Origin: Tridacna crocea
Taxonomy: Eukaryota > Mollusca > Bivalvia > Cardiida > Cardiidae
Assembly (NCBI GenBank): GCA_943736015.1
Contig: OX031065.1
Location: forward strand, 32,502,427-32,566,426
Length of the DNA: 64,000 nucleotides
Reading direction: 5' to 3'
Shown here: positions 356 to 62,556 of the stretch, piece after piece
Numbering within the stretch: position 1 is the first letter of the stretch
Layout: each line of letters starts with the position of its first letter
Notes under the pieces: generated by a model
What the model was told of the DNA's origin: nothing
Database searches by the model: none
Seen by the model: the letters and a program-made list of their open reading frames with translations, nothing else
Translations under genes and position numbers: made by a program

Positions 356-584
356 TTAACCCTTTACTCCACAGATACCCATTTCTACGCATTGCTTGCA
401 GGAGCCTTTGGAAAACATTGTAGCAAAAGGTGAAATTGCTTGTGACGAGCAATTTCACCTTTTGTCACAATGTTTTCTATGCTATCAAAAGGTATCATAT
501 ACACATAAGAAACTGCTACATCCTTGCTGTTATTTAGGGTCAATTAGAGATACCATAGAAATGCCTTATCGGGTAAAGGGTTAA
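356..584 (+). mobile_element. TTAA palindrome element, type B, full length
   Basis: TTAA at both ends, 229 bp. Ends read TTAACCCTTTACTCC and, inverted, TTAACCCTTTACCCG. The stem contains CAAAAGGTGAAATTGCT with loop TGTGACGAG, distinct from type A but at the same place in the element. Confidence 0.88.
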
Positions 585-4942: not shown

Positions 4943-5162
4943 TTAACCCTTTACCACACAATCCCGACTTTTAACGACCCTGAGAAGGAAGACTTTTGAA
5001 AACATTATGGGTATAGGAGAAAACCAGCATTTTCTCCTTTACCCACAATGTTTTCTACCCTTCACAAAACAAATTTCAAATTTTCAGTTGCTTTTATTTT
5101 GTTGTCTGCAAATGCTTTCAATTTGGACCACTCTATAAATTTTTCGTTTGGTAAAGAGTTAA
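4943..5162 (+). mobile_element. Type A element, near full length
   Basis: TTAA at both ends. The left arm lost GAAAATGCTGGT, so the hairpin tip is missing. Confidence 0.85.
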
Positions 5163-7331: not shown

Positions 7332-8471
7332 TTTTTAGCTCCACTGGCTGAAGGCAAACAGGCTTATGCTATGGCCCGATGTCCATGGTTCGTCCGTCTG
7401 TCTCTCTGTCCGTGCATGTGTGCGTTCGTTTGTCTGTGCGTGCATGTGTTAACTTTTATTTCAAACATCATCTCTGAAACTACCCATTCAGTTTTGATGA
7501 AACTTCACAGATATGATCCTGCCATGGGCCTCTTCAGAATTTTTTGAAAGAATTTGATTCCTTCAAAAACTCTGGTTGCCATGGCAACAAAACTTAAAAA
7601 TACCAAAAATCATCTTTTCCAAAACCATAAGGCCTTGGGCTACCAAATTTGCCCTTAGCTTTATCTAGTGGACCTCAACTATGTTCCTTCAAATAATAGC
7701 TCTGGGGTTAAGTCAGGCTTATATTCGAAAAAACTCTAAGAATCTACTTGTACCTAACCATAAGATCTTGGACAACCAAATTTTGCATGTAGATTTATGT
7801 AGTTGGCATCTACCAAGAGGCCCAAATTATAGCTTTAGGGTCAAATCTGTCTCCACACCAGCAGTCACAAGTTTTACATGGGCTTTTGTGGTAAAAACTG
7901 TAAAAATCCTCTTGTTAAGGCTAAGGCTCGTAAATTTAGCCCTGTCTCAGGGTCACATGTTTTACAGGGCCTTTTAATGAAGAAACTTTGATAATCTTCT
8001 TGTTTATAACCACATATTCAGACCTGTTTTATTTAATACAAGGATTCAAGTAACTATAGCTTAGTGGTCAAAAATGGCTTTGCCATGGGACATAGGATTT
8101 CATTGAAAAAATTTGGTTTGCCATCCAGTTTGAAAGCAATTGGCCATTGTATTAACCAGCTACCACACAATCCCTACTTGACGCCCCTGAAAAAGAAGCC
8201 TTTTGAAACACTGTAGGAAAAGGAGAAAATGCTGGTAACCAGCATTTTCTCCTTTTCCCACAGTGTTTTCTACCCTTCCCAGAACAAATTTCAATTTTTC
8301 AAGCACCTTTATTTTGTCGTCTGCAAATACTTTCAATTTGAACCAGTCTAAAATTTTGTCGTGTGGTAAAGAGTTAACCAATTTGCCAAGTATTGTAATA
8401 TTTGTCTAGTAGTCACTAGTGTTTTGACTTATTAGCCAGCGAGCAATACAGGGCCATCATGGCCCTCTTGT
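7332..8471 (+). mobile_element. C1 element, complete, with a type A insertion
   Basis: Starts TTTTTAGCTCCACTGGC and ends GAGCAATACAGGGCC with the hairpin and CTTGTTC. The interior has GTCCGTC-like runs and paragraphs resembling the C1 copies at 41419-42888 and 57790-58512. A type A copy sits at 8152-8377. Confidence 0.75.
8152..8377 (+). mobile_element. Type A element inside C1
   Basis: TTAA at both ends; flanking C1 sequence CCATTGTA / CCAATTTGCC. Stem variant CACTGTAGG against CCCACAGTG. Confidence 0.88.
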
Positions 8472-8541
8472 TCTGTTAACTGTTCATCGAACAATCCAGT
8501 GCTGTTACCTCAATGGCAATAAAGTGTGTCTCAGCCAGGTA

Positions 8542-8770
8542 TTAACCCATTACCACACAATCCCCACTTTTGACGCCCTTGAGAAAGAAGCCTTTTGAAA
8601 ACACTGTGGGAAAAGGAGAAAATGCTGGTAACCAGCATTTTCTCCTTTTCCCACAGTGTTTTCTACCCTTCCCAGAACAAATTTCAATTTTTCAAGCACC
8701 TTTATTTTGTCGTCTGCAAATACTTTCAATTTGAACCAGTCTAGAATTTTGTCGTGTGGTAAAGAGTTAA
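8542..8770 (+). mobile_element. Type A element, full length (229 bp)
   Basis: TTAA at both ends, stem variant CACTGTGGG/CCCACAGTG fully paired; first unit of the 393-bp duplication. Confidence 0.92.
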
Positions 8771-8864
8771 CCAATTTGCCAAGTATTGTAATATTTGTCT
8801 AGTAGTCACTAGTGTTTTGACTTATTAGCCAGCGAGCAATACAGGGCCATCATGGCCCTCTTGT
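8771..8864 (+). mobile_element. C1 3' terminus, duplicated copy
   Basis: Repeats 8378-8471, ending GGGCCATCATGGCCC and CTTGTTC. Confidence 0.75.
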
Positions 8865-8934
8865 TCTGTTAACTGTTCATCGAACAATCCAGTGCTGTTA
8901 CCTCAATGGCAATAAAGTGTGTCTCAGCCAGGTA

Positions 8935-9163
8935 TTAACCCATTACCACACAATCCCCACTTTTGATGCCCCTGGGAAAGAAGCCTTTTGAAAACACTGT
9001 AGGAAAAGGAGAAAATGCTGGTAACCAGCATTTTCCCCTTTTCCCACAGTGTTTTCTATCCTTCCCAGAACAAATTTCAATTTTTCAGTCACCTTTATTT
9101 TGTCGTCTGCAAATGCTTTAAATTTGAACTAGTCTAAAATTTGGTTGTTTGGTAAAGAATTAA
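8935..9163 (+). mobile_element. Type A element, full length (229 bp)
   Basis: Second unit of the duplication; TTAA at both ends; the left arm changed to GTAGG. Confidence 0.9.
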
Positions 9164-9860: not shown

Positions 9861-10973
9861 TTAGCTCTACTGGCTTTCAGCCAGCAGAGCTTATGTCATG
9901 GCGTGGTTTCCGTCGTCCGTCTGTCCGTCCGTCCGTTAGTCTTTTTCTTGTTTACGCGATAAAGTCTTCATTTCTGGTCAGATTTTCGTGAAACTTACAC
10001 AGTATGTTTATCTCATCGATAGCTTCAACCCTTTTGATTTTGAAAAAAATCCAACAAACAGTATGGGAAAAGTAGCCATTTCAAGTTGAAAATTTTCATT
10101 TATTGTTTACGCGATAAAGTCTTCATTTTTGGTCAGATTTCTGTGAAACTTACACAGTTTGTTTATCTTATTAATAGCTTCAACCCTATTGATTTTGAAA
10201 AAAATCCAACAAATAGTATGGGAAAAGTAGCCATTTCAAGTTGAAAGCTTTCATTTCTTGTTTAAGCGATAAAGTCTTCATTTTTGGTCAGATTTCTGTG
10301 AAACTTACACAGTTTATTTATCTCATCAATAGCTTTAACCCTATTGATTTTGAAAAAAATCCGACAAATAGTATGGGAAAAGTAGCCATTTCAAGTTTAA
10401 AATTTCCATTTCTTGTTTACGCGATTAAGTCTGTACTTTTGGTCAGATTTCCATGAAACTTGCAGAGTTTGTTTATCTTATCAATAGCTTCAACCCTATT
10501 GATTTTGAAAAATATCCAACAAACAGTATGGGAAAAGTAGCCATTTCAAGTTGAAAATTTTCATTTCTTGTTTACGTGATAAAGTCTTCATTTTTGGTCA
10601 GATTTCTGTGAAACTTACACAGTTTGTTTATTTCATCAATAGCTTTAAGCCTATCAATTTTGAAAAAAAATCTGATAAGCAGTATGGGAAAAGTAGCCAT
10701 TTCAAATTGAACAATTTCATTGCCTGTTTACATGATAAAGTATTTATTTGTGATCAGATTTTTATGAATTTTTTAGCTTGTTTATCCCATCAATAGTTTT
10801 TTAACCCCGTTAAGTTCCAAAAAATTCAACAAACAGTAATGGAAAAGTAGCCATTTTGAGTTGAAAATGTCAACTTTTTTGTCTTTTTGCGTAACGAATT
10901 CCTATGTATGCTTTATTTAAAAGCAAACTCTCTGCCAGTAGAGCATATTCAGGCCCTTCAGGGCCTTCTAGTT
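9861..10973 (+). mobile_element. D element, complete, with about six 155-bp monomers
   Basis: 5' hairpin CTCTACTGGC-TTTCA-GCCAGCAGAG, then GTCCGTCCGTCCG. Monomers start at TGTTTACGCGAT 9949, 10104, 10259, 10414, 10569 and about 10725, a steady 155-bp period. 3' end GCCAGTAGAGCATATTC, hairpin AGGCCCTTCAGGGCCT, then CTAGTTT. It splits a type A palindrome. Confidence 0.8.
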
Positions 10974-11516: not shown

Positions 11517-11734
11517 CTTCCTTCCTTCTTTCCTTCCTTCCTTCCTTCCTTCCTTCCTTCCCTCCCTCTCTCCCTCCCTCCCACCTTCCCTCCTCATTCC
11601 TACCTTCCCTCCTTCCTTCCTTCCTTCCTTCCTTCCTTCCTTCCTTCCTTCCTTCCTTCCTTCCTTCCTTCCTTCCTCTTCCTTCCTTCCTTCCTTATTC
11701 TTTCCTTCCTTCCTTCCTATCTTTCTTCCTATCT

Positions 11735-11740
<6 letters not shown>
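11517..11740 (+). repeat. TTCC microsatellite
   Basis: About 220 bp of TTCC repeats with short CTCC and ATTC interruptions. Confidence 0.95.
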
Positions 11741-11766
<26 letters not shown>

Positions 11767-11767
11767 G
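11738..11767 (+). repeat. AATC microsatellite
   Basis: Seven CAAT units directly after the TTCC run; AATC tails are typical of the SINEs here. Confidence 0.85.
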
Positions 11768-12103
11768 TCACAATGCAAGTTGATTGGTCTCACATAGTAA
11801 TCATGCAAACAGAACTTGTATATTACATGATTTCCTTTAGTTTCAGGGTGATAAATCAATTATGACTTTTGTTGTCTTACAATATGACATCAGATTTTGT
11901 GACATCATATGTGACGTCATTTTATGCTTCTTTTATAAATGAAATTGCCACATGTGCAATTCTGGTTTTGCTCATTTCAGCATATAATTTGCAAGATGCC
12001 ATTATGTGATGAAAAGAATATGATGTTACGACGTTCTTTGGCTCAAGATAAAAGTTTATTGAAGGAGTATACAAAAATATTATTAAGCTCTGAAGAAGCT
12101 TAC

Positions 12104-14212: not shown

Positions 14213-14475
14213 TGGAGTGCAACACGCGAAAAGGGTCATTCGGACATTTGCGTAAAGTGTCGTCTCTGATCAGCGTGTGCAGTCCGTACAGGCTAATCCG
14301 AAACGACATTTTCCGATTTTATGTGATTTTCTGTGTTACGCAAGTCGACTGTAGCACAAAATCTAATGTAGTTGTAAAGTGCCGTCCCGGATTAGCCTGC
14401 GCGGACTGCGCAGGCTAATCCGGGACGACACTTTACGCAAATGTCCGAATGCACCTTTTCGCGTGTTGCACTCCA
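14213..14475. mobile_element. E element, TIR transposon flanked by TA
   Basis: 263 bp with long inverted ends starting TGGAGTGCAACACGCG; the arms extend about 50 bp to GTCGTC. TA on each side fits a Tc1/mariner-type target. The interior holds GGATTAGCCTG copies facing each other. No transposase frame. Confidence 0.8.
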
Positions 14476-14883: not shown

Positions 14884-15082
14884 GGGCCTGTATTCACCAA
14901 CCATTCTTGAGAATATTCTTAGTCTTATTCTCCAAGACTTTCTACATTTGTAAGTAACACAACTTCTGATTGGCTAAACCAAATGGTTTAGCCAATCAGG
15001 AGATGTGTAACTTACAAATGTAGAAAATTCAGGAGAATAAGACAAAGAATGTTCTTAAGAATGGTTGGTGAATATGGGCCCT
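14884..15082. mobile_element. F foldback element
   Basis: Two arms of about 85 bp, GGGCCTGTATTCACCAACC against GGTTGGTGAATATGGGCCC, meeting at a short loop beside GGCTAAACC/GGTTTAGCC. No open frame. Confidence 0.8.
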
Positions 15083-15330: not shown

Positions 15331-16284
15331 TAGCTCTACTTGCTGAAAGCCAGCTGAGCTTATGTCATGGCATGATTTCCGTCGTCCTTCCGTTAGTCTT
15401 TTTCTTGTTTAACCCTTTACCCCATAAGGCATTTCTATGGCATGTCTAATTGACCCTAAATAACAGCAAGGATGAAGCCGTTTCTTATGTGTATATGACA
15501 CCTTTTGATAGCTAGAAAACAATGTGGCAAAAGGTGAAATTGCTCGCCACGAGCAATTTCACCTTTTGCCACAATGTTTTCCAAAGGTTCCTACAAGCAA
15601 TGCGTAGAAATGAGTATCTGTGGAGTAAAGGGTTAAGCGATAAAGTCTGCACTTTTTTTCAGATTTCCATGAAACTTGCAGAGTTTGTTTATCTTATCAA
15701 TAGCTTCAATCCTATTGAAAAAAAGTCCAACTAACAGTATTGGAAAAGTAGCCATTTCAAGTTGAAAACTTTCTTTTCTTGTGTATGTGATAAGTCTGCA
15801 TTTGAGGTCAGATTTTCATGAAACTTGCATAGCTTGTTTATATGATCAATAGCTTAAACCTTTTTGAATTTGATAAAAAGCCAACAAACAGTATTGGAAA
15901 AGTAGCCATTTTAAGTTGAATATTTTCATTGCTTGTTTACATGATAAAAGTATTTATTTGTGATCAGATTTTGGTGAATTTTTCAGTTTCTTTATCTCAT
16001 CAATAGCTTTAACCCTGTTGACTTTGAAAACATCCAACAAACAGTAATGGAAAACTAGCCATTTTCTGTTGAAAATTTTGCTTTCTAATTTACATGATAA
16101 AGTCGGCATTTGTTGTTGAATTTTTATGAAACTTGCACAGTTGCTTTGTCTCATCAACAGCTGGAACCCTATTTATTTTGAAAAGAATCTGACAATCAGT
16201 ATGGGAAAAGTAGCAATTCAAAGTTGAAAATGTCCATTAATTTTTTTGTTTATGGGCGCTTTCCTTCACACTGATTTTACTGGT
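15331..16284 (+). mobile_element. D element, interrupted by type B
   Basis: 5' hairpin TCTACTTGCTGAAAGCCAGC, 155-bp monomers, and a type B copy at 15409-15636. The end CACACTGATTTTACTGG runs into a C1 element at the same point as the copy ending 30478. Confidence 0.75.
15409..15636 (-). mobile_element. Type B element, full length, in a D monomer
   Basis: TTAA at both ends. The flanks CTTGTTTAA and TTAAGCGATAAAG join to the uninterrupted monomer text at 10259-10275. Stem GGCAAAAGGTGAAATTGCT with a perfect partner. Confidence 0.93.
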
Positions 16285-22725: not shown

Positions 22726-22955
22726 ATATTTTATCTCTATACCAAACAACAAAATTGTAGAATTGTCTAAAATTTTGAGCATTTGCAGACAACAAAATAA
22801 ATGTGGTTCAAAAATTGAAACTCGTTTTGGGAAGGCTACAAAACATTGTGGGAAAAGGAGAAAATGCTGGTTACCAGCATTTTCTCCTTTTCCCACATTG
22901 TTTTGAAAAGGCTTCTTTCTCAGGGTTGTTTATAAGTCGGGATTGTGTGGTTGAG
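22726..22955 (-). mobile_element. Type A element, ends eroded
   Basis: TATACCAAACAACAAAATTG start, palindrome near perfect, right end GATTGTGTGGTTGAG. Confidence 0.8.
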
Positions 22956-25166: not shown

Positions 25167-25398
25167 TTAAAAACCCTTTCCCAAACAATCCCTGGTTTTT
25201 ACGGGTCTGGAATAGTAGCCTTTCGAAAACATTGTTGGAAAAGAAGAAAATGCTGGTAACCAGCATTTTCTCCTTTTCCCACAATGTTTTCTACCCTACC
25301 ATAGAGAGAAATAATCTTTTCAGCAAGATTTGAATTGTCGTCTGGAAATGCTTTCAATTTGGTCTAGTCCAAAAGTTTATCGTTTGGGAAAGGGTTAA
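25167..25398 (+). mobile_element. Type A element, full length
   Basis: TTAA at both ends; left end variant CCCTTTCCCAAACAATC, palindrome with few mismatches. Confidence 0.87.
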
Positions 25399-26290: not shown

Positions 26291-26432
26291 GCTGACAAAA
26301 AATGAACAAATTGTCCATGAATGCTATCTGTATACATGTATGAGTCTAAAATCTTATAATTAGCCAGAGAGTTAAGAAAAAAGTCTCATTTCTTCCAGGG
26401 ATTAATGTGTAGTCTTTGTCTTTTGTTTGCAG

Positions 26433-27131
26433 GTTAAAAAATACAGGGATAAATTTGACCCTCGTGTGACGGCAAAATATGACATTAAAGCACTCATTGG
26501 ACGAGGGAGTTTCAGTCGAGTTGTGCGTGTGGAGCACCGTCTGTCTCGACAACCATTTGCCATCAAGATGATTGACAGGGAGCAAGGCAAAGAGGTTTTT
26601 GAATCTGAGCTTGCGGTTTTACGACGTGTCAAGCATCAGTACATTATTCAACTTGTTGAAGTATTTGAAACAAAAGACAAGGTTTACATGGTGATGGAGT
26701 TAGCAACAGGAGGGGAGCTTTTTGATCGGATTATTGCAAAAGGAAGCTTCACTGAAAAAGATGCCACAAGAGTGCTAAGAATGGTTCTTGAAGGTGTGAA
26801 ATACTTACATGGGTTGGGTATCGCCCATCGGGATTTAAAGCCCGAAAATCTACTGTATTATCACCCAGGTCATGAATCGAAAATCATGATCACTGATTTC
26901 GGATTAAGTTCAACAATACGAGGGGACAGTTTACTACGAACAACTTGTGGTACCCCAGAGTATATAGCCCCTGAAATTCTTGCCCGAAAGCCCTATTCAT
27001 GTCAGGTAGACATGTGGGCAGTAGGGGTCATAACCTACATTCTGCTCAGTGGAACAATGCCATTTGATGATGAGAATCGGACAAGATTATACAGGCTCAT
27101 TTTGAAGGCTAAATACAGTTACGCTGGAGAG
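26433..27131 (+). CDS. PSKH1: PSKH1 exon 2: protein kinase catalytic core
   Basis: Acceptor TTTGTTTGCAG ends at 26432 and donor GTAATAC starts at 27132. Residues 60-292 read VKKYRDKFDPRVTAKYDIKA and on through the kinase domain. Visible motifs are the glycine loop IGRGSFSRV (81-89), the ATP lysine in FAIK (K104), helix C E118, the catalytic loop HRDLKPEN (D193, N198), DFG (D214), APE (238-240) and DMW (252-254). All catalytic residues are present, so an active kinase is expected. Identity to vertebrate PSKH1 is very high by eye. A C2 repeat begins about 30 nt after the donor. Confidence 0.97.
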
Positions 27132-27160
27132 GTAATACAAATACTTCTTTTCCATTTTTA

Positions 27161-28757
27161 GCTTACCTGAACAGGAAGTGCTCAAGGTGAGCTTTTATGA
27201 TCGTGCTGTGTCCGACATGCGTCATCAACTTTTACCTTGTGTACGCTCTAGAGGCCACATTTTTAACCCAATACTCATGAAACTTAGTCAACATCTTTGT
27301 CTCAATAGAATTGCAGAGGAGGTCGAAAATGGGTCATGTTGGGTAAAAAACTAGATCACTAGGTCAGATCTTAGAAAAACCTTGTGAACACCCTAGAGGC
27401 CACATTTTCAGTCATATACAGTCATGTACTCTTGAAAGTTTGTCTCAATGTTTGTCTTGATGATCTGTATGAGGTTTTTGAAAATGGGTCACACTGGGTC
27501 AAAAACTTAGGGCAAATCTTTAAAAAAAAGCTTTTGTACATTGTAGAGGCCACATTATCAGTCCAACACTCATGTAAAATGGTCAGATTGTTTGTCCTGA
27601 TGATATTTATGACGAGTTAAAAAAATGGGCCAAAAACTAGGTCACTAGGTCAAATCTTAGATAAATCTTGTGTAAGCTCTCGAGGCCACATTTTCTGTCC
27701 AAAATTCTTGAAAGTTGATCAGAAAGTTTGTCTGGATGATATCTTGGAAGAGTTTAAAAATAGGTCATGTCGGTCAAAAACCAGTTTAGCAGGTCAAATC
27801 TTAGGGAAACCTTGTGTAGGCTCTAGAGGCCACATTTACAATCCAGAACTACTGAAAGTTGGTCACAATCTTTGTCTTGATGATCTCTCAGATTTCTTAG
27901 AAAATGGGTCATGTCGGGTAAAAACTGGGTCACTAGGTCAAATCTTACAAAATCCTTTGTAAGCTCTGGAGGACACATTTTCAGGTCTATACTCCTGAAA
28001 CTTGGTCAGAATGTTTGTCTTGATTATGCCTTGAATGAGTTTAAAAATTGGTCATGTGGGGTTCAAAAGGGAAGTCATTGGGTCAGAAATTAGAAAAACC
28101 TTGTATATGCTCTAGAGGCCACATGTACTCATGTCAGTCATGTACTCTTCAAACTCTGTCAGAATATTTGTTTTTGTGATATCTTTAAAGAGTTTGATAA
28201 TGGAAAATGTGAGGAAATGTCGGTTCAAAAACTACATCACTTGGTCAGTTCTAAGAAAAATCTTTTCTACACTCTAGAGGCCACATGATGTTTATCATAT
28301 TATCATATCATATCATTCATTCCAATACTCATGAAACTTGGTCAGAATATTTGTCTTGGTGATATCTTAAAAGTGCTTGATAATTGGTATTGTCTGATTA
28401 AAAACTAGGTCACCAGGTGAGATCTTTGAAAAACCTTGTGTATGCTCTATTGAAATTGGTCAGAATATTTGTCTTGATAATATCTTGAAAGAGTTTGAAA
28501 ATTGATAATGTCAGATCAAAAACTTGGTCACAAGTTTGAATACCTTGTTTACTTTCTAGAGGTCTCATTTTAAATGCAATACTCACGAAACTTGGTCAGA
28601 TTGTTGGTCTAGCTCCAGTATGCAACTGGGTCATTTTGGGTCAATAACTCATGAAAATTTTTGTAGAATGTTTGTCATAATATCTCAAAATAGATGGAAA
28701 ATGGGTCATGTTTGGTCAAAAGGTGAGCGATTTCCAGGCCATCATGGCCCTCTTGTT
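27161..28757 (+). mobile_element. C2 element, complete, with about 145-bp monomers
   Basis: Starts TTAGCTTACCTGAACAGG and ends AGGTGAGCGATTTCC with GGCCATCATGGCC and CTTGTTTT. The monomers are marked by CTAGAGGCCACA near 27249, 27394, 27544, 27680, 27824, 27967, 28113 and 28274, spaced 136-161 bp. It begins 30 nt after the PSKH1 exon 2 donor. Confidence 0.8.
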
Positions 28758-29734: not shown

Positions 29735-30478
29735 AAAAAAATCCCACAAGCAATATAGGAAAAGTAGCCATTTCAAGTTTAAAATTTCCATTTCTTGTTT
29801 ACGCGATAAAGTCTGTCTTTGTTGTCAGATTTCCATGAAACTTGCAGGAAATCTGAAAGTTGCAGAGTTTGTTTATCTTATCTAATATCTCCAACCCTAT
29901 TGATTTTGAAAAAAAGTTGACATACATTATGGGAAAAGTAGCCTTTTCAAGTTGAAAACTTTTTTTCTTGTTTACACAATAAAGCCTGCATTTGCATGGT
30001 CAGATTTCCATGGAACTTGCATAGCTTGTGTATATCATCAATAGCTTAAACCCTATTGATTTTTTAAAAAAATCCAACAAACAGTACAGGAAAAGAAGCC
30101 ATTTCAAGTTGAACATTTTCATTGCTTGTTTACATGATAAAATATTTGTTTGTGATCAGATATTTGTTTTTGTGAATTTTGCAGTTTGTTTATATCATCA
30201 ATAGCTTATGCCCTGTTGACTTTGAAAAAATCCAACAAACAGTAATGGAAAAGTAGCCGTTTCAAGTTGAAAATTTCAATTTCTTATTTACATGATGAAG
30301 TCAGCATTTGTGGTTGGGTTTTCATGAAATTTGCACAGTTGCTTTGTCTTATCAGCAGCTTGAACCCTATTGATTTTGAAAAAGAAACTGACAATCAGAA
30401 TGGGAAAAGCAGCAATTCAAAGTTATAAATTTCCATTTCTTGTTTATAAGAGCTTTCCTTCACACTGATTTTACTGGT
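29735..30478 (+). mobile_element. D element, 5' truncated
   Basis: 155-bp-type monomers (GTAGCCATTTCAAGTT, TTGTTTACGCGATAAAG), ending CACACTGATTTTACTGG at the junction with C1. Confidence 0.75.
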
Positions 30479-30985
30479 TTTTAGCTCCACTGGCCGAAGG
30501 CCAGCGGGCTATTGTCATGGCGTTGTGTCCGTCGTGCGTCCGTCCGTCCGTCCGTCCGTCCGTCCGTTCGTCCGTTCGTCCGTGCGTGCGTCCGTAAACT
30601 TTTTCTTTAAAAAACTTCTCCTCAGAAACTATTGACTGGATTTTTACCAAATTTCACAGGAATGTTCCTTAGGTGGTCCTCTTTCAAATTCCTTCAAATA
30701 ATTGTGCTCCATGAATAATTCTGGTTGCCATGGCAACCAAAGTAAAAAACCTTTAAAAATCTTCTCCTCCCAAACCGCTAATTGGATAGCATTATTTTTT
30801 TGCAGGAATGTTCCTTAGATATAGGTCTACAGAATTCCTTGAAAAAAAAAAGATCCATCAAAAAACATGGCTTTTATGGGAGACTCATTTTCCTTTTATG
30901 GTATTAAGTAAAATCTTTGAAAAATTTCTTCTCTCAAACTACTTGTTTTGATTTCATTGTTGTATTGAAGGTTAGTTCCAATGGT
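30479..30985 (+). mobile_element. C1-type element, 5' part
   Basis: TTTTAGCTCCACTGGCC-GAA-GGCCAG hairpin, GTCCGTCC run at 30538-30600, then a divergent C1 body; cut by a type A element. Confidence 0.7.
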
Positions 30986-31215
30986 GATAAGTCTTTACCA
31001 TACAATCCTGACTTTTAAGGACCCTAAAGAAGAAGTCTTTGGAAAACACTCTTGGAAAAGGAGAAAATGCTGGTAATCAGCATTTTCTCCTTTTACCTCA
31101 GTGTTTTCTACTCTATGAAAGAGAGAAATCATCATTTCATCAATGTTTAATTTGTTGTCTGCAAATGCTCTCAGTTTGGTCACATCCCAAGTTTTGTCGT
31201 TTGGTATAGAGTTAA
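30986..31215 (+). mobile_element. Type A element
   Basis: Left end ATAAGTCTTTACCATAC, near-perfect palindrome with centre GGTAATC, right TTAA. Confidence 0.83.
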
Positions 31216-32349: not shown

Positions 32350-32578
32350 TTAACTCATTACCAAACAACAAAACTTTAGGTTTGTCCAAATCGAAAGAAT
32401 TTGCAGACGACAAAATAAAAGTGACTGAAAATTTGAAATTTGTTTTGTAAAGGGTAGAAAACATTGTGGGAAAAGGAGAAAATGCTGGTTACCAGCATTT
32501 TCTCCTTTTCCCACAATGTTTTCTAAAGGCTTCTTTCTCAGGGGCATCAAAAGTAGGGATTGTGTGGTAATGGGTTAA
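32350..32578 (-). mobile_element. Type A element, full length (229 bp)
   Basis: TTAA at both ends, perfect inner palindrome. Confidence 0.93.
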
Positions 32579-33645: not shown

Positions 33646-33663
33646 ACATGTAAAAGAGTACCC

Positions 33664-33883
33664 GTAAACAGAAGACCCATCTTTTAGACTTTCTCAAAGT
33701 AAAAGTGCTTGTAGACAACAATTTGAATCTGACTTGATGGGATTTATCTATGGAAGGGTAAATTACATTTCGGTAAAAGGAGCAAATGCTGGTTTCCAGC
33801 TTTTTACTCCTTTTCCCGAAATGTTCCCAAAAGTCTTTGTTGTTACGGACATTGGCGTGGAATTTTTTGGTAAAGGATTATTA
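33664..33883 (-). mobile_element. Type A element with compensated stem changes
   Basis: Left arm ACATTTCGG (33765-33773) pairs with CCGAAATGT (33816-33824), where most copies have ACATTGTGG and CCACAATGT. Termini eroded. Confidence 0.75.
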
Positions 33884-34477: not shown

Positions 34478-34539
34478 TTCTTTACGAGACAATGATGTAG
34501 ACTTGTCCAAATTAAAGGCATATTCAGACAACAAATTAA
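34478..34539 (-). mobile_element. Type A left-end remnant
   Basis: GTAGACTTGTCCAAATTAAA and CAGACAACAAATTAA, ending at the TTAA of the next copy. Confidence 0.55.
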
Positions 34540-34764
34540 CCATTTACCACACAATGACAACTTTTAACACCCAGGATAGAAAAAGCTTTTGAAAACATTG
34601 TGGGAAAAGGAGAAAATGCTGGTTACCAGCATTTTCTCCTTTTCCCACAATGTTTTCTACCCTTTCAAAGAAAAACCATTTCATATGATCCACACTGAAA
34701 CTGTCATCTTCAAATGCTTTCAATTCGAACTGGTCTAAAATTCTGCTATATGGTAAAGGCTTAA
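34536..34764 (+). mobile_element. Type A element, full length (229 bp)
   Basis: TTAA at both ends; perfect inner palindrome with centre GGTTACC. Confidence 0.92.
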
Positions 34765-35793: not shown

Positions 35794-36022
35794 TTAACCC
35801 TTTACTGCATAAGGTATTTCTATGGTATCTCTAATTGACCCTAAATAAAAGCAAGGATGAAGCCGTTTTTTATGTGTATAGGATACCTTTTGATAGCATA
35901 GAAAATGTTGCGACAAAAGGTGAAATTGCTCGTCACGAGCAATTTCACCTTTTGCCACAAAGTTTTCCAAAGGCTCCTTCAAGCAATGCGTAGAAACGAG
36001 TATCTATGGAGTAAAGGGTTAA
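35794..36022 (-). mobile_element. Type B element, full length (229 bp)
   Basis: TTAA at both ends; stem CAAAAGGTGAAATTGCTCG with tip TCACGA; one base lost in the outer left arm. Confidence 0.93.
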
Positions 36023-36618: not shown

Positions 36619-36847
36619 TTAACCCATTACCACACAATCCCTACTTTTGACGGCCCTGAGAAAGAAGCCTTTAGAAAACATTGTGGGAAAAGGAGAAAAT
36701 GCTGGTAACCAGCATTTTCTCCTTTTCCCACAATGTTTTCTACCCTTCACAAAACAAATTTCAAATTTTCAGTCACTTTTATTTTGTTGTCTGCAAATGC
36801 TTTCAATTTGGACCAGTCTAAAATATTGTCATTTGGTAATGGGTTAA
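36619..36847 (+). mobile_element. Type A element, full length (229 bp)
   Basis: TTAA at both ends, perfect 71-nt palindrome; very close to the family consensus. Confidence 0.95.
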
Positions 36848-37513: not shown

Positions 37514-37633
37514 TGATTTCTGCTTGAAAGGGTAGAAAACACTTGGGGGAAAAAAAAAGAGAAAAAGCTGGTTACCAGAATTTTCTCTTTTTCCAAAAAC
37601 GTTTTCAGGGTCCATTCTTGCCAAGGTCATTAA
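37510..37633 (-). mobile_element. Type A element, 5' deleted
   Basis: Left terminus replaced; hairpin AGAGAAAAAGCTGGTTACC; TTAA at both edges. Confidence 0.65.
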
Positions 37634-37841
37634 CTCTTACCAAACAACAAATTTTTTGACAGGTCCAAATTGAGAGCATTTGCAAACGACTAAATAAATG
37701 TGACTGAAAAGTTAAAACTTGTTATGGGAAGGGTTGAAAACATTCTGGGAGAAAATGCTGTTTACCAGCATTTTCTCCTTTTCCCAGAATGTTTTCTAAA
37801 GCCTTCTCTTTCAGGGTCGTCATTGTGTGGTAAAGAGTTAA
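37630..37841 (-). mobile_element. Type A element with compensated stem change
   Basis: ACATTCTGGG pairs with CCCAGAATGT (G to C with C to G in the partner). The left arm lost AAAAGG. TTAA at both ends. Confidence 0.87.
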
Positions 37842-47069: not shown

Positions 47070-47298
47070 TTAACCCATTACCACACAATCCCTACTTTTG
47101 ACGCCACAGAGAAAGAAGCCTTTAGAAAACATTGTGGGAAAAGGAGAAAATGCTGGTTACCAGCATTTTCTCCTTTTCCCACAATGTTTTCTACCCTTCA
47201 CAAAACAAATTTCAAATTGTCAGTCACTTTTATTTTGTCATCTGCAAATGGTTTCAATTTAGACAAGCCTAAAATATTGTCGTTTGGTAATGAGTTAA
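47070..47298 (+). mobile_element. Type A element, full length (229 bp)
   Basis: TTAA at both ends; perfect palindrome with centre GGTTACC. Confidence 0.94.
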
Positions 47299-48293: not shown

Positions 48294-48540
48294 TTCACCC
48301 TGTACTACACAATCCAAAGTTTCATGAACTTAGAGAAGAGATGTTTGAAAACATATTTCGAAAAGGAGAAAACCCTGGTTTCCTTGGTTTTCTCCTTTTC
48401 CCATACTGTTTTCTGCTTTTCGAAAGACAGCTCTCATCATGTGAGCTAAGGTTGAGTTTTTGTCTGTAATTATGCTTTCATTTACAGAATGAAGAGTCTG
48501 AAGTGTGTGTGTTACCCTTTGAATGGTGAAAGAGTCAACT
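48291..48540 (+). mobile_element. Type A element with compensated stem changes
   Basis: AAAAGGAGAAAACC pairs with GGTTTTCTCCTTTT where the consensus has ATG/CAT next to the tip. Termini are eroded. Confidence 0.7.
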
Positions 48541-49587: not shown

Positions 49588-49795
49588 GTTTTACCCTTTC
49601 CGAAATAACAAAATTTTTACTAGTCCAAATTGACAGCACTTGCAGACAACATTTTAAGTTTGCAAATTATATTTTACTGTGGAAGGTTAGAAAAGATTTA
49701 GAAAAAGAGCAAATGCTAGTTACTTGCATTTGCTCTTTTTCCAACGACATTTAAAAAGACTTTGTTTTCAAGGTCATGACTACTTGGTAAGATTT
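49588..49795 (-). mobile_element. Type A element with compensated stem changes
   Basis: AAAAAGAGCAAATGC pairs perfectly with GCATTTGCTCTTTTT; the consensus is AAAAGGAGAAAATGC. Two paired positions have both changed. Confidence 0.75.
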
Positions 49796-49798
49796 GTT

Positions 49799-49971
49799 AA
49801 AATTTACCAAACAATCCATGGTTTTTATGACTCCAAGGAAGGAGCTTCTGAAAACATTGTGGGACAAGAAGAAAGTTCTGATAATTTTTTAACTATGTTT
49901 ATTTTGTCATCATTCTGCAAATGCATTCAATTTGGAAAAGACTAAAATTTTGTCATTTTGTAAAGAGTTAG
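49799..49971 (+). mobile_element. Type A element, palindrome lost
   Basis: TTTACCAAACAATCCATGG start and ATTTTGTCATTTTGTAAAG end; the right arm is gone. Confidence 0.7.
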
Positions 49972-50582: not shown

Positions 50583-50742
50583 CATTTTTAGCTCTACTGG
50601 CTAAAAGCCAGTAGAGCTTTATGTCATAGCATTGTTTACGTCCCTAAGTCTTCTTCTTGTTTATGCGATAAAGTCTGCATTTTTGGTCAGATTTTCTTGA
50701 ACCTTGCACAGCTTGTTTATCTCATCAAGAGCTGTAACTCTC
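50583..50742 (+). mobile_element. D element 5' fragment
   Basis: AGCTCTACTGGC-TAAAA-GCCAGTAGAGCT is a perfect 12-bp hairpin; one monomer start follows, then type A right end TTGTCGTTTGGTAAAGC. Confidence 0.7.
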
Positions 50743-58528: not shown

Positions 58529-58612
58529 TAGTATTATATACATGTATATAAAAGCATTTGCAGATGACATAGTATTATATACATGTATATAAAAGCATTT
58601 GCAGATGACATA
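58529..58612 (+). repeat. 41-bp tandem duplication
   Basis: TAGTATTATATACATGTATA with the following type A text occurs twice, 41 bp apart. Confidence 0.8.
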
Positions 58613-58776
58613 ATAAATGTTGCTCAAAAATTGAAATTTGTTTTTGGAAGGATAGAAAACATTGTGGGGAAAGGAGAAAATGCTGGTTACCAGCATTTTC
58701 TCCTTTCCCTGCTATGTTTTCAAAAGGCTTCTTTCTCAGGGTCGTTAAAAGTCGGGATTGTGTGGTAAAGAGTTAA
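58550..58776 (-). mobile_element. Type A element next to PSKH1 exon 3
   Basis: Left terminus lost; palindrome near perfect; right TTAA 58773-58776, 53 nt before the splice acceptor. Confidence 0.82.
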
Positions 58777-58829
58777 TCAGTTTGATTTCACAGTAATACC
58801 TTACTTTTGTATTTTTTGTTTATTTTCAG

Positions 58830-59189
58830 CACTGGAAGGACATATCCACATTAGCGAAAGATTTCATCGATAAATCCCTAGTCTTAAACCCAAATGAGAG
58901 GATGAACGCAACAGAGGCGTGCCATCATCCTTGGATTACCTCGATGGCCGCAAGTGCCAGCAACAAGAACTTGCATCGGACAATTAGTCACAATCTATTG
59001 CAAAGACAGTCTACTCGCTCCAGGGCAAACAGTTCAAAGAGTAATAAATCTACTAAGTCCACCAAATCAAACAAGTCTAACAAATCAGCCCGTTCTCTCA
59101 GGTCTGAGCATCGGCGAGTTCAGCACGAGGAGATTGAAGCTCTACATCGGGATCCAGAAGTTCAAGCAGACCTTGCATCCTTAGGCTAA
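58830..59189 (+). CDS. PSKH1: PSKH1 exon 3: end of kinase lobe and Ser/Lys-rich tail
   Basis: Acceptor TTATTTTCAG ends at 58829. Reading starts HWKDISTLAKDFIDKSL, includes the subdomain XI arginine (ERM, R316) and HPW (325-327), then MAASASNKNLHRTIS as in PSKH1. Residues about 350-385 are a low-complexity Ser/Lys/Thr run (SNKSTKSTKSNKSNKS), also found in the vertebrate protein. The stop is TAA at 59187-59189. The acceptor is only 53 nt downstream of a type A element (58550-58776). Confidence 0.95.
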   Translation, partial: HWKDISTLAKDFIDKSLVLNPNERMNATEACHHPWITSMAASASNKNLHRTISHNLLQRQSTRSRANSSKSNKSTKSTKSNKSNKSARSLRSEHRRVQHEEIEALHRDPEVQADLASLG

Positions 59190-59289: not shown

Positions 59290-59465
59290 AACCAAACATT
59301 CTCAAGAACCTCTCAAGATTTTCGAAATTTGAAAGTTACACAACTTCTGGTAGGCTTAGCAATTTGGTTTAGCCAATCATAGGATGTGTTACTTTTAAAT
59401 TTAGAAAATGTTGGAGAAAAAGACTAAGAATGTTCTAAAGAATGGTTGGTGAATACGGATCCCAG
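59290..59465. mobile_element. F foldback element
   Basis: CCAAACATTCTCAAGAACC arm and GAATGGTTGGTGAATACGG arm; third copy of the family. Confidence 0.65.
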
Positions 59466-62193: not shown

Positions 62194-62330
62194 CCTTTTC
62201 CAAAAGAACAAATTGTCAACTCTTCCAAACTTGAAGTTACTGCAGAGGACAAGTTTGAAATTGGGACTAATGAGCAGTATTTGCAGCACTTTCTTTTGTA
62301 ATGTTTTGAAGCCTTCTTCAAGAGTATTAC
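62190..62330 (-). mobile_element. Type A element, degraded
   Basis: CCTTTTCCAAAAGAACAAATT start; palindrome eroded. Confidence 0.45.
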
Positions 62331-62556
62331 CTCTTTACCAAATGACAAAATATTACACTGGTCCCAATTAAAAGCACTTGGAGACGACAAAATAAAGGTA
62401 ACTCAAAAATTGAAATTTGTTTCAAGCAGGGTAGAAAAACATTGTGGAAAAAGGAGAAAATGCTGGTTGCCAGCATTTTCTCCTTTTTCAACAATGTTTT
62501 CAAAAGGCTTCTTTCTGAGAGTCATTTTAAGTCGGGATTGTGTGGTAAAGGGTTAA
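62327..62556 (-). mobile_element. Type A element, full length
   Basis: Left TTAC, right TTAA; palindrome intact with tip GGTTGCC. Confidence 0.88.

Follow-up and report, generated by a model that had tools for sequence, protein, structure and literature searches.

Matched changes between the arms of a 67-bp palindrome in an abundant piggyBac-type MITE of Tridacna crocea are consistent with template switching and selection

The recurring palindromes in a 64,000-nucleotide stretch of the Tridacna crocea genome (contig OX031065.1, positions 32,502,427 to 32,566,426 of the forward strand; hereafter the window) are the internal part of a non-coding, non-autonomous piggyBac-like MITE of about 229 bp, and their two arms carry matching changes more often than chance predicts. 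The best explanation, which we consider probable, is that one arm is occasionally templated from the other in individual copies while the palindrome itself is kept by selection. The palindrome would be a built-in part of the MITE, kept where lineages still transpose, and in single genomic copies DNA synthesis would occasionally leave its template within the palindrome and copy one arm from the other by hairpin-primed or strand-to-strand template switching. Such a jump could spread a one-arm mutation to the other arm, giving a compensated pair, or erase it, and a jump through the centre could invert the one-base spacer. We infer that template switching is the agent and that most events follow insertion.

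Intact copies measure 229 bp from TTAA to TTAA, and the consensus termini at both ends read TTAA-C[CT]C[TA]TTACCA[AC]AC, starting with CCC or CTC. A profile search (nhmmer) made from the window’s own copies found 112 segments, which total 20,232 bp or 32% of the window after overlaps are thinned and include 47 full-length copies (31 plus, 16 minus). TTAA lies within about 10 bases of both ends in 37 of the 47, of one end in nine and of neither in one, the chance being 0.14 per end. An empty site with one TTAA is also present, as the joined flanks of the copy at 15409-15636 match an uninterrupted repeat at 9879-10025 (80%) and 50597-50733 (79%). These TTAA sites, the CYC-type ends and the interrupted tandem repeat together identify a piggyBac-type MITE; the ends of the piggyBac superfamily are reported as CCCTT, CCCAT, CCCTC or CACTA (PMC10813416). 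Kolobok elements have a TTAA target site and 5'-RR termini (PMC9587614), and we rejected this identity because the MITE termini are 5'-CYC.

The palindrome is 67 bp long and near-perfect, with 33 base pairs around one unpaired centre base (GGT-A-ACC), and lies about 55 bp from one end of the element and about 107 bp from the other. Folded as single-stranded DNA it gives -37.2 kcal/mol (z -14.5). A near-consensus full-length copy at 36619..36847 (plus strand; 229 bp, TTAA to TTAA; 248 bits) has a perfect palindrome at 36672..36742 with no stem changes, and the full-length copy at 32350..32578, in the reverse orientation (minus), has a perfect palindrome too. The palindrome first flagged, at 33765..33824, belongs to an old copy (33661..33880, minus; nhmmer 110.6 bits) whose flanks are 34% from consensus; it has two compensated pairs (k23, k24) and eight mismatched pairs of 33, and folds at -20.7 kcal/mol (z -8.7).

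The exact 31-bp core of the palindrome occurs 183,553 times in the 1,048,827,098 bp (31 contigs) of the genome searched, and a reversed-pattern control does not occur. In five arbitrarily picked 10-kb stretches, a small sample, the family makes up 21.7% of the sequence. This suggests that a single MITE family forms a sizeable share of the genome. The exact core had no match in the viral_contigs or genome_contigs collections, and in the literature searched, with few subscription journals, neither this MITE nor a study of template switching on MITE palindromes is described.

The piggyBac transposase domain (PF13843) has 118 matches in the genome, more than 20 of them full length without stops. 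We inspected 20 loci and 10 flank pairs among these matches and found no autonomous partner, the roughly 11 elements with recognisable ends sharing at most about their first 10 bases with the MITE. Loci L006-L011 and L015 hold piggyBac elements about 2,765 bp long that have TTAACCCTTTATATAC ends in common and 474-624 aa open frames, which suggests recent piggyBac activity in this genome. At L017-L020, which are 492-aa piggyBac loci, MITE copies occupy matching positions in the flanking sequence, so the MITEs appear to ride with a larger duplicated unit.

The described element most similar in kind is CMITE of Acropora corals (PMC2872659), which shares the TTAA, the piggyBac-type ends, the short non-coding body and the occurrence in tandem arrays. 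Its internal region is reported to be more conserved between families than its terminal repeats and was proposed to matter for transposition, and the interior is conserved here as well. CMITE differs in being about 100 bp long and present in about 1,600 copies in A. millepora (PMC2872659), against 229 bp and the far larger core count here. The main text of that paper uses neither palindrome nor hairpin, whereas the interior of this MITE is a palindrome over 67 bp.

We scored co-variation in the window on copies with at least 20 scorable pairs, which kept 80 of the 112 segments and dropped 32. A pair was called compensated when it was Watson-Crick and both sides differed from the consensus. There were 57 compensated cells, against 16.6 +/- 3.8 when the letters of one arm were shuffled among copies (maximum 30 in 2000 permutations). 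The original prediction, that the stem is kept while its sequence varies, is borne out by this excess and by the arms quoted in its support, all of which are present. Those at 37739 belong to a copy at 37630..37841 (minus) with k24 changed from G-C to C-G and one mismatch in 27 scored pairs; those at 49698 to a copy at 49590..49799 (minus) with three compensated and seven mismatched pairs of 30; and those at 48361 to a copy at 48295..48505 (plus) with two compensated and eight mismatched pairs of 33. The subgroup with CACTG and CAGTG arms is a change of pair k26 from T-A to C-G, seen in eight of the 80 scored copies. It includes a copy that has been tandemly triplicated (393 bp; 8152..9163, plus) and one on a different flank background (30988..31215, plus), whose sister at 25172 has T-A.

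With k26 set aside and changes shuffled within each copy, the 41 young window copies have seven compensated cells against 1.25 expected (reached in none of 2000 shuffles) and the 36 old copies 31 against 20.2 (reached in seven of 2000). Among the young copies are compensated changes of k33 from G-C to C-G (22731..22952, minus), of k19 from A-T to G-C (58590..58776, minus) and of k20 from G-C to A-T (62327..62556, minus). Three copies form a second subfamily, with 11 compensated cells against 2.0. The copy at 15409..15636 (minus; AAAAGGTGAAATTGC arm), which sits in a tandem repeat, differs from the main family by four flipped pairs, the copy at 35794..36022 (minus) has the same four, and the copy at 356..584 (plus) has three. 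Most arm changes are uncompensated, with 89 mismatched pairs to seven compensated in the young copies, so pairing decays with age.

A larger sample of 302 copies, including those of the window, gave 215 copies scored at the same threshold of at least 20 pairs; 30 further copies selected for an intact core were left out. Compensated cells exceeded expectation at flank divergence below 0.15 (3 against 0.5) and at 0.15-0.22 (5 against 2.0). There was no excess at 0.22-0.30 (11 against 9.0) or at 0.30-0.40 (22 against 20.7). The 13 copies diverged by more than 0.40, which probably belong to other subfamilies, had 16 against 4.0, and the 17 copies resembling the second subfamily had 58 against 10.6. 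Mapped by parsimony on the flank tree (mean of 20 reconstructions; about 74 internal and 320 terminal site changes in total), changes of both partners on the same branch numbered 5.4 against 0.9 expected on internal branches and 19.0 against 6.4 on terminal ones. The excess of compensation is thus roughly three-fold, over decay that is mostly uncompensated.

Two pairs were followed across the genome. At k8, both bases are altered in 106 copies whose 31-bp core is otherwise intact. Single-arm changes number 1,850 and 1,893 beside the unchanged cores, from which independence predicts 19 doubles, and off-pair controls, in which k9 on one side is combined with k8 on the opposite arm, gave 26 and 38 copies. 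Among the first 50 of the 106 doubles, 40 are Watson-Crick (T-A 22, G-C 12, C-G 6), where the single-change spectrum would give a share of 0.38 (P 2e-9). The off-pair controls are Watson-Crick-like in 30 of 64, against 0.36 expected (P 0.05), and differ from the k8 doubles (Fisher 4e-4). Specificity for the true pair against an off-pair control is therefore established at one pair. At k12 there are 481 doubles, and 35 of the first 50 are Watson-Crick against 0.37 from the marginals (P 2e-6). The off-pair k9/k8 doubles lie in an AAAA tract and are mildly Watson-Crick-like, as if templating slipped by one base in the homopolymer.

The excess doubles at k8 amount to about 2% of the single changes. 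Copying from arm to arm is rare per mutation and does not keep old copies paired. Mismatches in the outer stem occur in 95 of 671 cells of the doubles, 34 of 507 of intact-core copies, 27 of 167 of the non-Watson-Crick doubles and 26 of 288 of the k12 doubles. As the non-Watson-Crick doubles are likewise rich in such mismatches, and the k12 doubles less so, copy age does not separate the models.

Matching changes could also arise under selection for pairing alone, if a hairpin or cruciform, or an RNA hairpin, were needed for transposition, changes in one arm were purged from transposing lineages and ordinary second mutations that restore pairing survived. We regard this as rather unlikely, although several observations fit it. 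The rate of private substitution is lowered in the stem, most at the centre (0.40), and returns sharply to about 1.0 outside; intact or near-intact palindromes are found at 30-50% flank divergence; and whole pairs distinguish the second subfamily. With a mismatch survival of 0.4 the model predicts that 58% of doubles are Watson-Crick, and the 35 of 50 at k12 appears close to that value, but the 80% at k8 exceeds it (P 0.001). Nor would selection predict that almost every double is a lone copy with a flank background of its own and not a member of an amplified lineage, or that T outnumbers G 14-fold where the centre has no partner, and if it acted on RNA, G-T mismatches should be preferred, which they are not. 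Templating from arm to arm explains the private compensated pairs better.

Each compensated pair could also have been born once in a source element and then amplified. The original prediction had raised the possibility that all trace to a few master copies, and at k8 and k12 they do not. At k8, the 40 Watson-Crick doubles are spread over 36 flank backgrounds with a threshold of 0.10-0.12 and over 29 with 0.20, and all 17 k12 doubles with flanks read have their own backgrounds (16 at the 0.20 threshold). Flanks were read for the first 50 of the 106 k8 sites and for 17 of the 35 Watson-Crick k12 doubles, covering the T-A and C-G types and leaving out A-T. Flank distance among the 50 k8 doubles is similar for pairs of the same type (0.335) and of different types (0.330). 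Because older subfamilies also carry T-A at k8, we removed copies with flanks more than 25% diverged; 27 of the remaining 34 k8 doubles were Watson-Crick, on 24 backgrounds. The same change has therefore recurred on many backgrounds at both pairs, and amplification from a few masters is a most improbable general account. It does hold for some states: the k3/k8/k13/k20 and the k8-k26 subfamilies each share flanks, and most k26 C-G copies of the window fall in one region of the flank tree.

The subfamily with T-A at k8 and C-G at k26 was met at L014:3663, L015:86, L024:307 and L053:9456, with flanks about 33% diverged, and the L053 copy additionally has A-T at k2 and C-G at k3. These copies look as if whole pairs had changed step by step in the direction of the second subfamily.

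The centre base, which has no partner, varies too. In oriented copies whose right arm and right flank are both perfect, the counts of the three bases tallied are A 41,219, T 14,385 and G 1,025. T thus makes up about 26% of the oriented A-or-T copies genome-wide, and T outnumbers G 14-fold. Among 100 listed single changes of A at k8, T and G stand at 31:50, T being the rarer. The change at the centre is therefore strongly biased from A to T, and template switching would produce this bias by inverting the spacer. In the window, the full-length copy at 47070..47298 (plus) has a perfect stem and centre T, and its three nearest flank relatives have A; the copy at 34536..34764 (plus) also has T, with stem changes at none of 66 sites and flanks 30% from consensus.

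The T copies are scattered among the A copies and cluster only in part. For 20 of the 14,385, all on one contig (C1), we read the flanks: the distance between T copies is 0.265, between T and A copies 0.266 and between A copies 0.269, and at a threshold of 0.12 the 20 T copies fall on 15 backgrounds, as 28 A copies fall on 20. Seven of the 19 T copies with a scored neighbour have another T copy as the nearest (with three ties), above the pool share of 20 in 167, so some T states are inherited. In the larger sample, a T neighbour is seen for 27% of T copies and for 6% of A copies. The simple reading is a recurrent inversion of the one-base spacer that is sometimes passed on. Centre T is not enriched among the Watson-Crick k8 doubles (four of 40), and arm matching and spacer inversion may therefore be separate events.

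Inverted repeats that have undergone template switching reportedly show this combination of homogenised arms and an inverted spacer (PMC8604942). The arms of this MITE resemble the cases of template switching and quasipalindrome correction described there and in PMC8794818 in their homogenisation, compensatory pairs and spacer inversion. Those cases are yeast genes and RNA genes, and here the substrate is one palindrome at about 180,000 places.

Copying between arms does not explain everything about the stem. Relative to the flank expectation, private substitutions run at 0.39-0.40 in pairs k1-11, at 0.53-0.68 in k12-22 and at 0.64-0.77 in k23-33, and directly outside the stem at 1.00-1.05. 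These values are for the closest-neighbour setting; a looser setting gives 0.42-0.64 for the stem. The private rate of the stem is thus 0.39-0.77 of that of the flanks. Since unbiased copying between arms could not reduce how many sites are changed, another force must act too. Palindromes are intact or nearly so in copies with flanks 30-50% diverged, and because of this persistence and the low private rate, selection for the palindrome within lineages still active in transposition seems the likelier explanation of stem conservation. The conserved interior of the coral CMITEs (PMC2872659) and the palindromic CRD sites of piggyBat (PMC11707139) would be comparable cases. The original prediction had offered selection and correction between arms as alternatives, and both seem to apply at different levels: the Watson-Crick excess and the centre inversion argue for arm copying, and the persistence and low private rate for selection. 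The terminal repeats are a difficulty for selection, as their private rate shows no reduction (0.92-1.00 in the larger sample, 0.97-1.30 in the window).

It is conceivable, though doubtful, that the palindrome is partly self-preserving, each arm serving as a backup template so that error-free bypass of lesions or stalls lowers the substitution of the stem in situ. This would fit the gradient in rate, strongest at the centre, and the sharp stop at the end of the stem. If so, spacer inversion and the occasional compensated pairs would be by-products of bypass, and a selfish element would carry its own local mutation suppressor.

The arms could instead be two sites for a dimeric protein, such as a piggyBac-type CRD, and evolve together as terminal inverted repeats do, without a hairpin. 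The transposases of piggyBac and piggyBat bind short palindromes near their ends through paired CRDs (PMC11707139), and in those elements, as here, palindromic sites lie inside and the left and right ends differ. The inner arms share AAATGCT with a conserved block in the right flank, which has a private rate of 0.74-0.78 relative to expectation. We nevertheless think paired half-sites improbable: with an unchanged protein, repeating a change in the other half-site would bring no benefit, the three Watson-Crick states at k8 and the bias at the centre are left unexplained, and at 67 bp the palindrome far exceeds the CRD sites of 14-19 bp described in PMC11707139.

Gene conversion between copies, spreading stem variants and holding stems near the majority sequence, would give low stem divergence without many doubles, and the occurrence of C-G at k26 on separate backgrounds is in keeping with it. 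Conversion tracts should, however, enter the homologous flanks, yet the private rate is about 1.0 directly outside the stem, and isolated pairs with rare states, such as G-C and C-G at k8, would be hard to import from other copies. We judge it very unlikely as the cause.

Deletions may also mark the palindrome. Of those of at least four bases, 13 of 27 lie inside it, in 73 of 231 columns (53 copies), an excess that is only suggestive. The copy at 4943..5162 (plus) combines a nine-base deletion at the centre with a compensated k19.

We found no evidence of an RNA role for the palindrome. At the Rfam gathering threshold the window contains one tRNA only and no hairpin family, and G-T mismatches are not in excess over A-C mismatches in young copies (19 against 33) or old ones (35 against 30). 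Palindromic MITEs can act as RNA, as the mir-548 hairpins derive from Made1 MITEs (PMC1784062). Made1 is a MITE family that yields miRNA hairpins, and this one differs from it in lacking such evidence.

Compensatory changes are routinely taken as proof of a selected structure. Here about 180,000 copies of one long palindrome are dispersed through a genome, presumably mostly unselected after insertion, so that at each pair the rate, spectrum, tract length and orientation of templated doubles can be compared with single changes. Each ingredient is already known; it is the scale, with measurable doubles and spacer flips, that stands out, and it makes a debated mutation process directly testable. 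The strongest evidence that template switching maintains short stems has been called circumstantial (PMC8794818), and a natural experiment on this scale could resolve its role. The results also carry a warning, that covariation in repeat-derived hairpins can come from mutation alone, and they bring to light a highly successful MITE of the piggyBac type with a puzzling conserved palindrome.

The window holds other palindromes and repeats. At 14374-14436 there is a different, GC-rich near-perfect palindrome of 63 bp (GTAAAGTG...CACTTTAC), unlike the main family and possibly another hairpin MITE. A near-perfect palindrome of 120 bp lies at 14923-15042, and a shorter and less perfect one at 59314-59413 looks related to it; the two are perhaps members of a second palindromic repeat family. 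Tandem arrays of one family with a unit of about 155 bp occupy 9944-10868, 15659-16238 and 29735-30492, and simple repeats of CTTC/TCAA or GTCC lie near them in two places (11517-11770 and 30527-30595). We take this arrangement to be reminiscent of bivalve elements of the pearl/Helentron type. Among nine open reading frames of the window scanned against Pfam, only two had matches, both to the kinase domain PF00069, at 26406-27161 (plus) and 58797-59189 (plus; 25.5 bits, under the family cut-off). They lie 31 kb apart and may be exons of a single gene, MITE copies lying between them.
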